From positions 1 to 64,000 of the forward strand of contig RECI01000164.1 in the NCBI GenBank assembly GCA_007694095.1: a DNA stretch of 64,000 bases, in the 5' to 3' direction. Origin of the DNA: Balneolaceae bacterium. Its GTDB lineage: Bacteria > Bacteroidota > Rhodothermia > Balneolales > Balneolaceae. This document shows positions 11,887-22,404 of the stretch, in pieces (within the stretch, counting starts at the first letter, position 1; each line of letters starts with the position of its first letter). Both the position numbers and the translations under genes were made by a program. The notes under the pieces are model-generated. The model was not told the origin of the DNA and did not search any database. It saw nothing but the letters and a program-made list of their open reading frames with translations.

Positions 11887-13992
11887 CTATTTCTTTTTGG
11901 ATTTGGATGAAAACAGGTCACCAAAAAAGTCAGAAACTTCGGTGGCAGCCATCGAAAAGAAGGCAAATACGGATGAACTGTTTCGCCCATTCTTGTCAGC
12001 CCGGGATTTTTTTGACTCATCTGGAATTTCTTCTACTTTTGGCGCAATAGGTTCTTTCTGCTTGGGTCTCTTGGGCTCTAATACCACGCTGTGTTCCGGA
12101 ACAGTGTAACTTGGTTTTGCTTTGCTTTCAACTTTAGGAATTACAACTTCTTCAATATTCTGATCGTTATCCTCTTCTTTTACAGCCCCGGCAGCAACTG
12201 CTCCGGTTGCCGCGGCGGTACCGGCACCGGTTCCTGATTTTTTCACACCTGATTTGGGTGAAAATGCTTTTGCAACGTAGTAAATAATTCCTGCGGCCAC
12301 TAAAGCAAGTATAACATAGATGAGCCACAGCGGACTTCTCCGATCTGCTTCATCGGCTTCAGCATCTTCAGGATCGAGCATAGGTTCTTCTGTAACTGCT
12401 CTTTCATCTGGTGTAAGCTCTTCTGCAAGCTCCGTGTCTTCAGGTGAGATTTCATCGATTGCAGCTCTCTCTTCCCGCTCGACCCGGTCATCAGTGTAAA
12501 AATCCTCGACGATTGGCCGGTCTTCCTCTCGGTCATCATCAGGTTCAATTTCTTCCATTTCCGGTTCTTCAAGAAGGTCGGTTTCCGGTTCCTGGGCTAC
12601 CGTTCGTGGTACATCGACTATTATGGTTGTATCTTGTTCATCTTCATCAAGTGGTTCCTCCGTTGTCGGCAGATCAGCGATATCAGTCAGAGGATCGGTT
12701 TCTTTCCTTCCCTCAAGTTCCGGCTGCATTCGCGCCTGGTAGTCGGGATCAGCAGGATCAACAATCGTCTCTGGCTCATCCGGCCTTAGCAGATCGCTGA
12801 TATCGCGCCCGTCAATTGCACGTTCAAGATCACGTTCAAGAGAATCGATTTCACTCTGAAGTTCACGGATCGATGCAGCATACTGTTCTTCCTGCTGAAC
12901 CCTTGCCTGTTCTTGAGCAGCAAGTTCGTCTTGCAACGAACGTATAATAGACGACAACGATTCAATTTCAGTTGCATTTGCATCAGCTCTTCCTCTTTCT
13001 CTTGCAAGTTCTTCTTCAAGTGCTGCAATTCTTGATTGAAATTCATTGAGGGTGTTTGCATAGTGTTCAACGAGTGCATTACGGGCTTCTTCTTCGGATA
13101 GCCTTTGTGCTTCAAGTGAGTCAATGAGACTTCTTAGTGATCTGACTTCCTCAGCAAAGAGTTCATCCTGCCGGGCAATTAGTGCTTCTTCAAGTTCACG
13201 AAGTACGTCACGATCGCCCAATGTTGGCAAAGCAGGTGCCCGCGACGGTACATGCCAATCAGCATCACGGCTACTACCCCCAAACTTAAACTGTATACCA
13301 ACCGATACCGCGCTCCATGATCTTGAACTTTGAGCAGCTCCTCCAAGATTCAGTAATTCACCAACAAAATTTCCATCAATGATATCCCTGCTTGAGGAGA
13401 TGTACTCGTATTGAGCAAAGGAGTCAATTCTTGGCCCAAGATTAAACCTCACACCACCACCAAAAGTTGTGAAAAAAGAAGTAAAGGGGTGGTCTTTAGC
13501 AGAAACTGAAGATTGATTTATTTCCGGCCTGTCTGATTCGATGCTAACATTATTGAACATTAAGCCGGTCCCGAAACTGCCGTAAATATTAAAATTACTG
13601 GATGTGGCACCAAACAACCGAAGTAAACTTAATTGAGTTGTAATCGAAGTGGTGAGGTAATTATTTTCAAAAGAAAGAAGGTCCTGGTCAAAAAAATCAC
13701 TTAGAATGGTGAATCTGCCATAAACAATATTAGATTGCAGGGCTATTTCGGGGGATATTACATATCGAATATTGAAGCCGAGATTTGTATTAAACTGATC
13801 CTGAAACTCAAAAGCACCTGCAACACCCGACTGGAAAGATGAAGTGCCCATGTGGCCTTTCGCAACATTACCCATTATGCCAAGGCTTAATCTATTAGGC
13901 TCATCGTCATTATTATTTTGTGCGTGCAAATGGGTGGTTTGCCAAATCAGCAAAGTAAAAAGTATTGTTAGAATCTTCCCCGAATACATCAT
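11887..13992 (-). CDS. barrel-like N-domain + coiled coil + acidic region + C-terminal TM helix protein
   Basis: N-domain paralogous to 2134-3441; long coiled coil; TM segment LWLIYVILALVAAGIIYYVAKAF; lysine-rich tail. Confidence 0.65.
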   Translation of the reverse strand: MMYSGKILTILFTLLIWQTTHLHAQNNNDDEPNRLSLGIMGNVAKGHMGTSSFQSGVAGAFEFQDQFNTNLGFNIRYVISPEIALQSNIVYGRFTILSDFFDQDLLSFENNYLTTSITTQLSLLRLFGATSSNFNIYGSFGTGLMFNNVSIESDRPEINQSSVSAKDHPFTSFFTTFGGGVRFNLGPRIDSFAQYEYISSSRDIIDGNFVGELLNLGGAAQSSRSWSAVSVGIQFKFGGSSRDADWHVPSRAPALPTLGDRDVLRELEEALIARQDELFAEEVRSLRSLIDSLEAQRLSEEEARNALVEHYANTLNEFQSRIAALEEELARERGRADANATEIESLSSIIRSLQDELAAQEQARVQQEEQYAASIRELQSEIDSLERDLERAIDGRDISDLLRPDEPETIVDPADPDYQARMQPELEGRKETDPLTDIADLPTTEEPLDEDEQDTTIIVDVPRTVAQEPETDLLEEPEMEEIEPDDDREEDRPIVEDFYTDDRVEREERAAIDEISPEDTELAEELTPDERAVTEEPMLDPEDAEADEADRRSPLWLIYVILALVAAGIIYYVAKAFSPKSGVKKSGTGAGTAAATGAVAAGAVKEEDNDQNIEEVVIPKVESKAKPSYTVPEHSVVLEPKRPKQKEPIAPKVEEIPDESKKSRADKNGRNSSSVFAFFSMAATEVSDFFGDLFSSKSKKK

Positions 13993-14420: not shown

Positions 14421-15434
14421 TTATTCGAGGATCGTTACACATGTATGTGCGTTGCCAATATCAAGGCCCAGGCTTAGCGTATCAGGTGAACTTCGTTTAT
14501 TGGCAGAATGTAAGCAATATCCAGTGCTGGCCATTGTAAGCGGATCATCCGGAATTTCAATTTTCAGAAGGCCTTTAAACTCGTCGTGAAAGCAATTCAC
14601 CAGTTCAGGGTAATTAGCACCGCCGCCAACCAAAATTAATGTACTGGATTTGTTAAAATCTTCATCAATCCAGGTATTCTGAATCAATGGCGAAATGACG
14701 TTACTGTAGTATTGTTTCATTACAGTTTTTCGAATTTCCGTCAAATCAATTCGTTTTCTGTTAATGGTAATACTGCCATTTTTTAAAGCCTGGTCGAACT
14801 GGTGTTCGGTTCTGAGTCCCAAATAATGGGTTGTTGCCATTTCTTTCATCGCGGAATCTATGGCGTAGCGAAGTCCATTACCGCTGTTTAGTGTTCGCTG
14901 GATGAAACCATTGTCGGTACATAAACCGAATTCCAGTGTGCCATATCCCAAGCTGACAACAAACATATTTCCGCGAATATTCATATCCCCCTCGCGGGCC
15001 GTGATGATTGATCCAAATAACTCCGGGATTATATTAATCCGTTCCAGATTCACTTCAACATCTTCATACCCGGGGCCGCCATAGGGCCTTGTATCCTGTC
15101 GTATGGTTTCAAGTTTACTGATATAATCGGATGCGGCGGTTTTAAAGATATTAAACGTAGCGTGAGGAAAACCGGTAGTCAGGGATATTGGTTTGTCAAG
15201 AGCATAATCGGCAGCAATAACCAAACCTGATTTAAGCAGTAACTGATAATCAAGGTCATCCGGGGCGCTGTTGATGCCTTTATGCGGTGCTTTGCCTTCG
15301 GATAGTGCTAAATGGCCAATGATATAATCTTCTTTTTCGTGCTGGATTTTTATCCCGGCAGACCTGTCTGTGGTAACATTTACTAAAGTGGAGCCGAAAC
15401 TTTCCGAAACACTTGGATATAGAAATTTTTTCAT
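14421..15434 (-). CDS. ParM/StbA-like actin-family ATPase, apparently circularly permuted
   Basis: starts MKKFLYPSV (normally follows phosphate-1), phosphate-2-like VVSLGYGTLEFGL, adenosine motif LILVGGGANYPEL, and ends LSLGLDIGNAHTCVTILE* (phosphate-1-like). Confidence 0.8.
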   Translation of the reverse strand: MKKFLYPSVSESFGSTLVNVTTDRSAGIKIQHEKEDYIIGHLALSEGKAPHKGINSAPDDLDYQLLLKSGLVIAADYALDKPISLTTGFPHATFNIFKTAASDYISKLETIRQDTRPYGGPGYEDVEVNLERINIIPELFGSIITAREGDMNIRGNMFVVSLGYGTLEFGLCTDNGFIQRTLNSGNGLRYAIDSAMKEMATTHYLGLRTEHQFDQALKNGSITINRKRIDLTEIRKTVMKQYYSNVISPLIQNTWIDEDFNKSSTLILVGGGANYPELVNCFHDEFKGLLKIEIPDDPLTMASTGYCLHSANKRSSPDTLSLGLDIGNAHTCVTILE

Positions 15435-18705: not shown

Positions 18706-18979
18706 ATGGGGCTCAATTGATTTAACAGGTAAACGCTTGAGAAGGCAGATTGTTTCTTTTCGGTAGGTACGAAATAAAATGGATATCTGATATAGAGGTG
18801 GGGCAAATTTTTATCAGGGCCGGTTATGATTATGATAAGGATGAGATTCTTTGTTAAAACTCTCAGCCAAGCGGCGTTACTACCAATGCAAAACCAGATC
18901 GGTCAATCACCATTCGGTCATTCGGTTTATCGCAAATCAAAGAAGGGAATGACCGAATAACCGAAGAATCGAATGGCGA

Positions 18980-20050
18980 TTGGCGAATGGATTAAACCCG
19001 CCCCCTTGCAAACACCCTGAAAGGGTGAAACAACAAAGCCCCGGGCGCAATGAGGGAAATCGCGCAGCGAATAGCCCCATGGAGCCCGGGGATAAACGAG
19101 CCGAACCCCCGCGTCTCCCGAGCGAAGATCTCTTGAAAGTGAAAATTAACATCGAGGGGATGGTGACAACGCGTTGTCAGGGTGATCAACCCCTTGCGGT
19201 GGCCAATGCCAGCCATCATGCCGCTGCCCCTCGAAACCTGCCGTACCTCCGGCACGGGGTCGCGCTTCGATCGCTGGTTTCTACAAACATTTCGCACCTC
19301 ACGGCGCGCTTGGTTTCATAAAATACATCGACGCATGAATAGGTTTGTGATTCAGAGATCGTTTGTTCCAATGCAACTTCCCTCGTCCCGGCAGGGATGG
19401 TATGTTTGTAGAAAATGACCGGCCCGAACATGCCTTTGTCCCGGCAGGGACAATATGTTTCTGGTTAAATAAAATTGTCGTACGGCGTATTTGCGGACGT
19501 CCTTTCAGCATCGAAGGTCAGTTTCCGGTTGAATGATAAAAATAAGCCCTACCTCCGGCGTTTTTTTGCGTCGGGTGCAGGAGAGGGGTAGGGTTGAAAT
19601 AGTTGGAAATCGATTCTATCATTCATCACCTAAATTTATAAAGCTTAAAAATGGCATTAACGACTTTTGAGACAGCCTCTAACGATGTCGTTGGCGCATC
19701 CAAACCCGAAATACCGCAAAGCGATCCCTTCGGGGAATTCCGGGGCTATAACATCGGTCATCCGTGATGCGGATTGTTTTGAGCAGATGACCGGTACAGA
19801 ACCTAAAAAACCGGGTTATGCATTGCACAAAACAGGAAAAGGAATAGCAACGACAACGCCATTTTGGGGAAGTTGAGTTAAAAAGAAAATTTGAAAATTA
19901 AGAGGTCTGATATATCAGCAAAAGATTATTGATCAAGTATAAAAAAGCAGGTGGAAGAAAGTCTGATCGTAATGGTTTGGAAAAATTGGAATTACTCATC
20001 AAAACTTAGTCCCGACATGGTATTTCTATTCGGAGAAGTGCCTGAAATTG
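18980..20050. repeat. dispersed-repeat island (Bacteroidota-type REP-like units)
   Basis: multiple TCCCGGCAGGGA palindromes followed by ATGGTATGTTTGTAGAAA-like tails in both orientations (about 19239-19300, 19384-19415, 19438-19466, 20012-20040); no credible long ORF. Confidence 0.6.
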
Positions 20051-20124
20051 TCTTGCAATTGAGATTTATGCAGACCGGTTTTATAGGATAAACAGAATTA
20101 CCACGTCTCATTTGAAAGACAGGC

Positions 20125-22404
20125 CTAAAACTTCATTTCCACCACCACCTGGAAATTTCTCGGCGGGGCAAATATTGCAGGCCGTTCCACATAGTAATAG
20201 TTAAACAGGTTCCTGGCCATCAGAGTAGCACTCATTTCAAACCGGTTTGCCGGCTGTGCCCATATAAAACGTATTCTGGCATCAGTTACATAAACAGCAG
20301 GGAATACCTCGGCATCACTCACAAAAAATGAAAAATCGGTATCCACTCGGTCAGGCGCACTTGCCGTACGAAAATCGAGGCCGGCCTCTATCCAGCTTGT
20401 GATGAAAGAGCGGCCGCTCAACTGGAGAAGGTGTTTCGACCGGTAGACCAGTGGCTGATTCAATTCAAGATCGGCCGGATCCAAAAGTGTATAACTCGCA
20501 GTGACCTGGTGGTTCTGATCCAGCGTGGTGACAGACATGGATGCTTCCGCGCCACGTATTCGTGCTTCGGTGAGGTTTACAAACTGGAAAGAGCCGGATG
20601 AAGGTTGGAATGTTGGTTCTACCAGCCGCTGGTATTCGTTCCAAAAACCTGTGAGTTCAGCCCTGAGGCTGAATAAACTTCGAACCGGCCTCATGTAGGT
20701 AAACCCGGCCTCATAGCCGGTACTGGTTTCCGGCTGCAGGGTGATATTCGATACAAGCGGAAAAAAATCAGCATTATTGAAAAAACGTTCGGCAACACTG
20801 GGAACCCGGAAACCGCGGCCGAAGGATCCCCTTACAGTCAGATAATCATCCACAACATAGGATGCACTGAACTTTGGGCTGAATTGTGTGGCAGTCTCGA
20901 GGGTATGTACCTGGTAAGCATCGTACCTGAAGCCGGCAGTTGTGGTTAACCGGTTGCTCCAGTTATACTCTGCCTGGAGAAAAATTGCCCCTTCAGGCTG
21001 GTTTCTAACCATCAGTGAATCTTCACCCACAAAAACATCCGAGCGGATGTAATTTTCATCAAACGATCCTCCGGCAGTTATAATCAGCTCATCAGATGCC
21101 TGGATGTTGATTTGTGCTTCACCTCCATAGCGAACACCAACATTATGCTTTTCTGATGGGCGCACATTCCCCTGCCTGTCAATGGGACGGAAAGCCACAC
21201 CAAATAATCTGCCTTTCAAAGAATACTGTACGTGCGGGCTGATGTTATGTGTGAAAACAGGGAGAATGGTGAGGCGGTCGGAAAGACCCCTGTTAGAACC
21301 GGATGCAGTGTCGCCTGTAAGGCGGATTTCACCCGGACGGAGCGGATCTTTAAGCCCGTTCCAGTAAAGAAACTGGTAATTCCGGTTTCTTCGTGCGCTG
21401 GTGTAAAGCGAAAAATCGATCTTGCGGGTAACATTCCAGCCAAGTTTACTGTAAAGTTCAAGCCCTTCGGTGGTATTATTTTGCAGGTAACCGGCATTGT
21501 CGTGCAATTTTCCGCTGAGCCAGAAACCGAAATTATCGCCCGCTTTTTGTGAGTGGCCAAAAAGCAATCCCCTGAACTGGCGGTAATCTGATGCACCATT
21601 CCACGTCTGCCACACATCGTACCTTACCGGCTCATAAACACCGCCATAAAATCGCAGTGTGGTTTCGGGCTTTTCGGGAAAATCTTTTGTGATGATATTG
21701 ATCACCCCTCCAAGTGCCCCGCCTCCATAGAGGGCAGAACCGGGGCTTTTCAATACTTCGATCTGCCGGGTTTGGGTAAGCGGGAGGCCGTCAAAATCCA
21801 TTCCGCCCTGGTCGGGACCCATCATCGGAACACCGTCTACGAGTAAAAGTACCCGGCTTCCCACACCATAGGTAAATCCGGATGAGCCGCGTACGTTTAC
21901 AGAATTCCCAAGTACCTGTACACCGGGCACATAATCCAGGGCCTGGTCAAGAGATGTAATATTTCTCGACTGGATTTCTGCGGGTGTAATCGTATTCATA
22001 CTTACCGAAACCCTGCCGATCAGCTGGCTTCGCCGTGATGCCGTTACCACCAGTTCACCCGATTGCATGGTGATTGGTTCCAGTTCTATATCAAGAATAG
22101 TTATTTCACCGGAGGAAAGCAGGATGTTGAAATTTACTGTTTGAAATCCAACCATGGATACCCTCAGGGAATAGGAGCCGGGAGGAAGTGAGCGGATACG
22201 GTACACTCCTTCAGAATTGGTAACTGTTCCGGTCTGCAGTTCCGGGATAAAGAGATGTACTCCGGGCAAGGTTTCGCCGGTGGTGCCCTGAACAACGCCC
22301 CGCAGTTCGGCCCCGGCATCCTGTGCATAGCTATAGCTGTGCGTGCTGCTCAGCAAGGCAATAATCATGAAGAGGATGTAGCAGTATTTCACAAGATCAT
22401 TCAT
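20125..22404 (-). CDS. TonB-dependent receptor with CarboxypepD_reg-like N-domain
   Basis: GVVQGTTGETLPGVHLFIPELQTGTVTNSEGVYRIRSLPPGSYSL, plug domain RSSGFTYGVGSRVLLLVDGVPM, C-terminal barrel ending VVVEMKF. Confidence 0.95.
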   Translation of the reverse strand: MNDLVKYCYILFMIIALLSSTHSYSYAQDAGAELRGVVQGTTGETLPGVHLFIPELQTGTVTNSEGVYRIRSLPPGSYSLRVSMVGFQTVNFNILLSSGEITILDIELEPITMQSGELVVTASRRSQLIGRVSVSMNTITPAEIQSRNITSLDQALDYVPGVQVLGNSVNVRGSSGFTYGVGSRVLLLVDGVPMMGPDQGGMDFDGLPLTQTRQIEVLKSPGSALYGGGALGGVINIITKDFPEKPETTLRFYGGVYEPVRYDVWQTWNGASDYRQFRGLLFGHSQKAGDNFGFWLSGKLHDNAGYLQNNTTEGLELYSKLGWNVTRKIDFSLYTSARRNRNYQFLYWNGLKDPLRPGEIRLTGDTASGSNRGLSDRLTILPVFTHNISPHVQYSLKGRLFGVAFRPIDRQGNVRPSEKHNVGVRYGGEAQINIQASDELIITAGGSFDENYIRSDVFVGEDSLMVRNQPEGAIFLQAEYNWSNRLTTTAGFRYDAYQVHTLETATQFSPKFSASYVVDDYLTVRGSFGRGFRVPSVAERFFNNADFFPLVSNITLQPETSTGYEAGFTYMRPVRSLFSLRAELTGFWNEYQRLVEPTFQPSSGSFQFVNLTEARIRGAEASMSVTTLDQNHQVTASYTLLDPADLELNQPLVYRSKHLLQLSGRSFITSWIEAGLDFRTASAPDRVDTDFSFFVSDAEVFPAVYVTDARIRFIWAQPANRFEMSATLMARNLFNYYYVERPAIFAPPRNFQVVVEMKF

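Follow-up and report, generated by a model that had tools for sequence, protein, structure and literature searches.

Sequence and modeling evidence for a conserved actin family of the ParM/Alp class with a natural circular permutation, encoded beside tryptophan-tailed bactofilins in many relatives

A phosphate-1 hairpin at the C-terminus

A gene of a Balneolaceae bacterium raises the question of whether an actin with a rearranged chain order can occur in nature. The gene lies in the first 64,000 nucleotides of contig RECI01000164.1 (assembly GCA_007694095.1; this whole stretch is referred to as the window), and its product had been predicted from the DNA alone to be a ParM-like actin in which the phosphate-1 motif was moved from the front of the protein to its end. 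The reading frame is genuine; it runs from 15434 to 14421 on the minus strand, which the original prediction had left unstated, and encodes 337 residues. The motifs quoted at that time (FVVSLGYGTLEF, LILVGGGANYPEL, DDPLTMASTGYCLHSA, and LSLGLDIGNAHTCVTILE at the C-terminus) all occur in the protein, the last of these being its final 18 residues. The first element of the chain is strand three of subdomain IA (FLYPSV, within MKKFLYPSV), and its last is the phosphate-1 hairpin, GLDIGNAHTCVTILE. An in-frame TAA, said to precede the ATG, was located seven codons before it (TAA LIYYQS M), so a concealed N-terminal copy of phosphate-1 is ruled out; most homologues also have stops a few codons upstream. 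Promoter and terminator predictions were not above those for shuffled sequence. The positions of the features are collected in Table 1.

Table 1. Features of the permuted actin-like gene and the evidence on which each rests.
Feature	Position	Strand	Basis
Permuted actin-like protein, whole gene including stop	14421..15434	-	ORF, conserved family, AlphaFold2 actin fold, Foldseek
Phosphate-1 hairpin (beta1-beta2), residues 319-337, TLSLGLDIGNAHTCVTILE, C-terminal and not N-terminal	14424..14480	-	Invariant residues in 70/70 rows; rotation restores ALP_N
Part of the new linker from ancestral C-terminal helix to phosphate-1 hairpin, approximately residues 314-318	14481..14495	-	Variable length in family
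Strand beta3, MKKFLYPS, now N-terminal; preceded by phosphate-1 in ordinary ParM/Alp	15411..15434	-	Profile alignment, DSSP
Phosphate-2-like motif MFVVSLGYGTLE, residues 157-168; Ser161 replaces the usual Asp	14931..14966	-	70-row alignment; pCBH ParM alignment
E138, invariant glutamate (70/70)	15021..15023	-	Catalytic Glu/Gln position of ParM/actin by assignment, without superposed structure
Adenosine motif VGGGAN, residues 269-274	14613..14630	-	G270 and G271 in 70/70 rows, G272 in 65/70

The native protein matched the ParM profile phrog_691 with 64.9 bits over residues 3-293 (profile positions 25-306), an alignment that leaves out the phosphate-1 hairpin and sets residue 3 at profile position 25. 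When the C-terminal 20 residues were placed in silico before residue 1, the match extended over residues 5-313 and profile positions 6-306 and rose to 77.8 bits, a gain of 13 bits. Two controls carrying shuffled hairpins gave 65.6 and 67.0 bits, with starts at positions 24 and 21. For the Pfam profile ALP_N (PF17989), the native protein was unlisted at E values up to 10, and the rotated protein scored 33.0 bits (cut-off 26.3) over profile positions 1-147 of 148; ALP_N was absent for both shuffled-hairpin versions. Rotation of the alignment or profile brought no improvement in searches of PDB sequences. Several relatives exceed the ALP_N cut-off without rotation, and an unrotated match at E ≤ 0.01 was obtained for 47 of 54 members. 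All ten ALP_N matches in 248 genomes of the phylum begin at profile positions 16-21, and since these ten sit at places already known for the permuted family, no ALP_N protein of ordinary order was seen in those genomes. The rotation test with its shuffled controls and the split of the profile matches support the prediction that the permutation is real and extend it to the whole family.

An alignment-based scan of genome contigs succeeded in finding 71 homologous loci, which tree labels assign to Bacteroidota, Balneolota, Rhodothermota, Ignavibacteriota, and Gemmatimonadota; a single-sequence genome scan had yielded no match. Among 59 relatives, 12 genomes contained matches (one a fragment) that were mostly full length and 46-72% identical, the window's own protein being excluded, and full-length homologues with the same start and end (40-72% identity) were present at every rank of relatedness, from genus through family, order, and class to phylum. 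The distribution is patchy, with the permuted actin found in 18/297 and 23/393 genomes sampled across the phylum (∼6%). In all complete loci the protein opens with the FPSV strand, in most cases only a few residues after a stop codon, and has a GxDxGNxxT hairpin close to the C-terminus, followed in some by an extra tail. The phosphate-1 hairpin is C-terminal in every member that reaches its C-terminus, and G323, D325, G327, N328, and T331 are identical in all 70 aligned rows. One locus (L094) is truncated by a contig end. Another, the permuted actin of a Candidatus Azobacteroides MAG (L097:5998-7058), is split over three frames and represents a pseudogene or sequencing errors. Homologues with an N-terminal phosphate-1 motif together with a rearrangement at this locus, or a predicted structure with the C-terminal segment outside the phosphate-1 position, would have refuted the prediction; neither condition was encountered. 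The same order in 71 loci of other genomes argues against an assembly rearrangement in the window, and an assembly or annotation artefact was ruled out. Judged from sequence, the gene thus belongs to a conserved family of ParM/Alp-class actins in which circular permutation has occurred naturally. New chain ends would have arisen at the turn that links beta2 to beta3 in subdomain IA, and the ancestral ends, near each other in IA, would be bridged by a short variable linker. The distance from helix to hairpin is 7-28 residues in the family and 7-9 in 57/70 members, as expected for a bridge between adjacent ancestral ends.

Predicted fold and altered nucleotide site

An AlphaFold2 model built with 54 family sequences displayed an actin fold at high confidence (mean pLDDT 92.6, pTM 0.90). 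Residues 2-7 form a strand according to DSSP, and the C-terminal strands 320-326 and 330-336 were modeled at pLDDT 93-95. The structure prediction proposed earlier as a check thus returned a confident actin fold with a confident hairpin; that the hairpin packs at the phosphate-1 position is inferred from the model without superposition. Foldseek gave the best TM score for pCBH ParM (0.74, E 2e-15), followed by Ta0583 (0.69), Dh-cParM1 (0.68), Alp7A (0.66), and CorM (0.65), with MreB lower. The ParM/Alp proteins (pCBH ParM 6ixw/6izr, Alp7A 5ec0, and chromosomal Dh-cParM1 8x1i) have the actin fold in common with the window protein at 17-19% identity, are collinear with its residues 3-293 over most of the ParM profile, and share the phosphate-1 motif, the adenosine motif, and a catalytic-type Glu. 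In contrast to them, the permuted family has its phosphate-1 hairpin at the C-terminus, a Ser for the phosphate-2 Asp, no ParR/parC that could be found, and a bactofilin neighbor in many relatives. Ta0583 (2fsj), the second-best fold match, is an archaeal actin homologue of Thermoplasma acidophilum and belongs to a different lineage. We know of no permutation in Ta0583.

The phosphate-1 and adenosine motifs are kept throughout the family, whereas phosphate-2 lacks its Asp in all 70 aligned rows: the position holds Ser in 66, Cys in 2, Gly in 1, and Asn in 1. Ser161 aligns opposite the Asp of pCBH ParM LIDVGFKTTD, while G163, G165, and E168 of the same motif are invariant (70/70). The phosphate-2-like motif had been recognized before and is present, but the loss of its Asp had been missed. 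The family likewise shows no variation at D325 of phosphate-1, at E138, or at the two leading Gly of the adenosine motif. From family knowledge and motif context, we take E138 to be the catalytic Glu/Gln position of ParM/actin. The phosphate-2 Asp of ParM is D170. The ParM D170A mutant forms static filaments (PMC5539076). From the replacement of this Asp by Ser together with the behavior of the mutant, we infer slow or no hydrolysis. The permuted actin probably binds ATP and hydrolyzes it slowly or not at all, although neither ATP-binding nor ATPase data are available. By analogy with D170A, and likewise without polymerization data, it may form stable assemblies instead of dynamically unstable ones.

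Bactofilins with a tryptophan tail as neighbors

No ParR-like gene or parC had been reported near the gene, and this is right for the window, but many homologues have a candidate partner nearby, a bactofilin, a linkage that had been overlooked. Bactofilin (PF04519) is the commonest neighbor of the permuted actin in relatives, and five such neighbors that were tested scored 48-80 bits against this profile (cut-off 27.9). In a six-frame search, a bactofilin was found within 1.6 kb of the actin in 41/72 loci (∼57%), compared with an expectation of ∼0.2% for a random gene. Thirty-three of these 41 lie less than 500 bp away on the same strand, usually directly downstream. The remaining 31 loci, including that of the window, have no bactofilin nearby, 8 of them with short flanks. 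The mere presence of a bactofilin was dropped as support: all 24 actin-bearing genomes have one, but so do 44/61 of a wider sample, so that only adjacency and the tail described below are informative. No recurrent ParR-like neighbor appeared among the neighbor-gene clusters compared.

The downstream bactofilins possess a distinctive end. Trp is the final residue in 27/36 and lies within the last three residues in 31/36, whereas Trp within the last three residues was found in none of 13 upstream bactofilins, none of 21 encoded elsewhere in the same genomes, and none of 29 from a wider sample of the phylum (a few of which repeat genes of the other sets). The raw Fisher value of 3e-15 is inflated because the sequences are related, and the counts overstate independence; by clade the contrast is 7/8 versus 0/13. 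An unplanned confirmation came from the genomes of loci without a linked bactofilin, where a W-ended bactofilin of Parapedobacter koreensis (ending GGWW) proved to adjoin a second permuted actin. In the same sample, a W-ended bactofilin of Sphingobacterium belongs to a cluster already known (L055), and all others are without the tail. A model of one tailed bactofilin comprised a confident beta-rich core to approximately residue 110 followed by a low-confidence tail. Linkage to an aromatic-tailed bactofilin occurs in several deep branches (Ignavibacteriota, Balneolales, Cyclobacteriaceae, Sphingobacteriaceae/Dysgonomonas, Fodinibius, and Salinibacter), which indicates that the pairing is probably old; it needs approximately six changes on the tree.

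The arrangement varies among loci. The order bactofilin-actin-bactofilin is seen at some Sphingobacterium, Dysgonomonas, and Massilibacteroides loci; the Sphingobacterium clusters are preceded by an M23 peptidase gene. In three genomes the tail is missing and there is an intervening TPR gene. Bactofilin-M23 modules shape cells (PMC10945521). The BacA-LmdC modules described there have a bactofilin in common with the loci studied here and, in nine of the latter, an M23 peptidase gene nearby; the permuted-actin module adds the actin, and its bactofilin has the Trp-ended tail. Sphingobacterium alkalisoli (L055/L087) and Parapedobacter koreensis (L085/L194) each encode two permuted actins, one within a bactofilin-actin-bactofilin cluster and the other alone. 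The members from Gemmatimonadota MAGs (L076, L077, and L080) form a long branch, and two of them (L076 and L077) have bactofilin-like and M23-like genes upstream, not downstream. Five Bacteroidales actins without a linked bactofilin (L041, L044, L046, L050, and L052) themselves end in a similar peptide, F/Y-x-P-x-F-S (KPAFS, EPTFS, EPDFS).

The organism of the window belongs to a Rhodohalobacter clade that lacks tailed linkage and has as its sister a Balneolales clade that possesses it. Its genome has a single bactofilin, which is unlinked and tailless, so the pairing does not explain the window copy, and the partner of the latter is unidentified. Near the gene, 11890-13992 on the minus strand encodes 701 residues with an apparent signal peptide, an OMP-type barrel, a coiled coil, an acidic stretch, a transmembrane helix, and a basic tail. 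This product is possibly an envelope-spanning linker; its relation to the actin is unestablished. Related genes adjoin the permuted actin elsewhere in Rhodohalobacter, downstream at L027 and upstream, without the transmembrane helix, at L028, but neither position nor architecture is conserved as would suit a replacement partner. A further region of ∼1.4 kb (18706-20127) has no convincing genes, no Rfam match, and imperfect GTCCCGGCAGGGA-type repeats at 19380 and 19433.

Interpretation and alternatives

We consider it probable, though well short of settled, that the family comprises a permuted, slow or non-hydrolyzing actin that in much of the family is paired with a membrane-bound bactofilin through the Trp tail. 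The partner would be the bactofilin encoded directly downstream, whose beta-helix core is followed by a disordered tail with a terminal Trp motif. C-terminal partner peptides dock in the IA/IIA groove of the actin in ParM-ParR and in crenactin-arcadin-2, the latter with a Trp (PMC5173319). The proposed principle is the same here: the tail most likely docks on the permuted actin as the ParR and arcadin-2 peptides do on ParM and crenactin, where they occupy a hydrophobic groove. The partner differs in being a bactofilin, and its binding has not been demonstrated, so the docking remains inferred. It would tie an ATP-switched actin to a membrane-bound, nucleotide-independent scaffold, and that scaffold would position cell-wall enzymes; the wall function is inferred, and the M23 peptidase neighbors fit the known bactofilin-M23 link (PMC10945521). 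The fuller version, a two-polymer module of Bacteroidota and relatives in which the actin with its altered phosphate-2 motif serves as an ATP-dependent polymer or switch with slow or absent hydrolysis and the Trp peptide couples it to a bactofilin scaffold that is bound to the membrane and places cell-wall enzymes, is advanced only tentatively.

The bactofilin could instead be a mere neighbor in a morphogenesis operon, with the permuted actin functioning on its own or together with different proteins (a filament similar to MamK or FcmB would be one example) and with the Trp tail binding something else, such as the membrane or a wall enzyme. We regard this as rather unlikely but worth keeping in view, since 31/72 loci, among them that of the window with its one tailless bactofilin, lack a bactofilin nearby, and a terminal Trp could insert into the membrane. 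FcmB sets a precedent: it and CorM (9rmi) are ParM-like cytoskeletons of cyanobacteria that, like the present family, are chromosomally encoded actins derived from ParM, and FcmB controls cell shape and has a dedicated partner, FcmC (PMC12645912). The resemblance extends to a weak NCBIfam FcmB match (E 0.003) and the CorM fold match; FcmC, however, is ParR-like and not a bactofilin, and no permutation has been reported for FcmB or CorM. Against the neighbor explanation, the tail occurs only in bactofilins directly downstream of the actin and in none of the others sampled, which a specific partner fits better than a general membrane role. A shape role of the permuted actin could be redundant, because MreB is retained in all genomes checked. 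Substitution for MreB was itself ruled out, as a separate canonical MreB is present in 34/34 genomes. The permuted actin is near MreB/Hsp70 in its phosphate-1 wording and has shape-related neighbors; MreB, however, is unpermuted, and the matches of the family to MreB_Mbl (20/54 members) are weak and not comparable to those of true MreB.

Three other explanations received little credence. A domain swap, in which the C-terminal hairpin completes a neighboring subunit to give strand-swapped polymers or dimers, is conceivable because the hairpin sits at a free end behind a linker that reaches 28 residues in some members; we think it very improbable, as most linkers are only about the length required to bridge the ancestral ends within one subunit and the monomer model is confident throughout. 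A ParM-type partition system that segregates DNA or plasmids with an undiscovered adaptor would suit the best profile match, phrog_691 being a phage/plasmid partition family, and the nearest structure, pCBH ParM. It is scarcely favored by the remaining data: no homologue was present in 72,556 plasmids, 50,697 phages, or the scanned viral contigs, for which reason a plasmid or phage origin was dropped, the linkage is to bactofilins instead, and no ParR-like gene or parC-like array was noted, although no systematic repeat search was made. Equally hard to sustain is a non-polymerizing ASKHA enzyme or adaptor (similar to acyl-CoA dehydratase activase, EutJ, or PilM) that happens to be permuted; a few members have weak NCBIfam matches to CoA_E_activ and EutJ, but rotation lifts the protein above the ALP_N cut-off, most members match ALP_N even unrotated, and the best fold matches are polymerizing actins. 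For the permuted actin paired with a bactofilin, which we continue to prefer, filament formation and an envelope role are inferences.

To our knowledge, no natural circularly permuted actin is known. We found no natural case in the open-access PMC literature, where the one relevant-looking match is reportedly a paper on a ParM-based ADP/ATP sensor (PMC6695626); subscription papers and preprints were outside this scope, and a prior description is not excluded. The chromosomal ParM and FcmB papers mention neither permutation nor bactofilins (FcmB: PMC12645912). Because the standard ALP_N and ParM profiles begin at phosphate-1, the family is under-detected, and this may explain how it has escaped notice. 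Its existence shows that an actin maintained by selection need not keep the phosphate-1 hairpin in a set order, and both chain ends have been relocated within subdomain IA. With the phosphate-2 Asp consistently lost, the family makes a clear prediction about ATP hydrolysis that can be tested. Finally, bactofilins with a private Trp tail suggest that, in a large group of common bacteria, actin and bactofilin, two cytoskeletons so far mostly studied separately, may be directly coupled.
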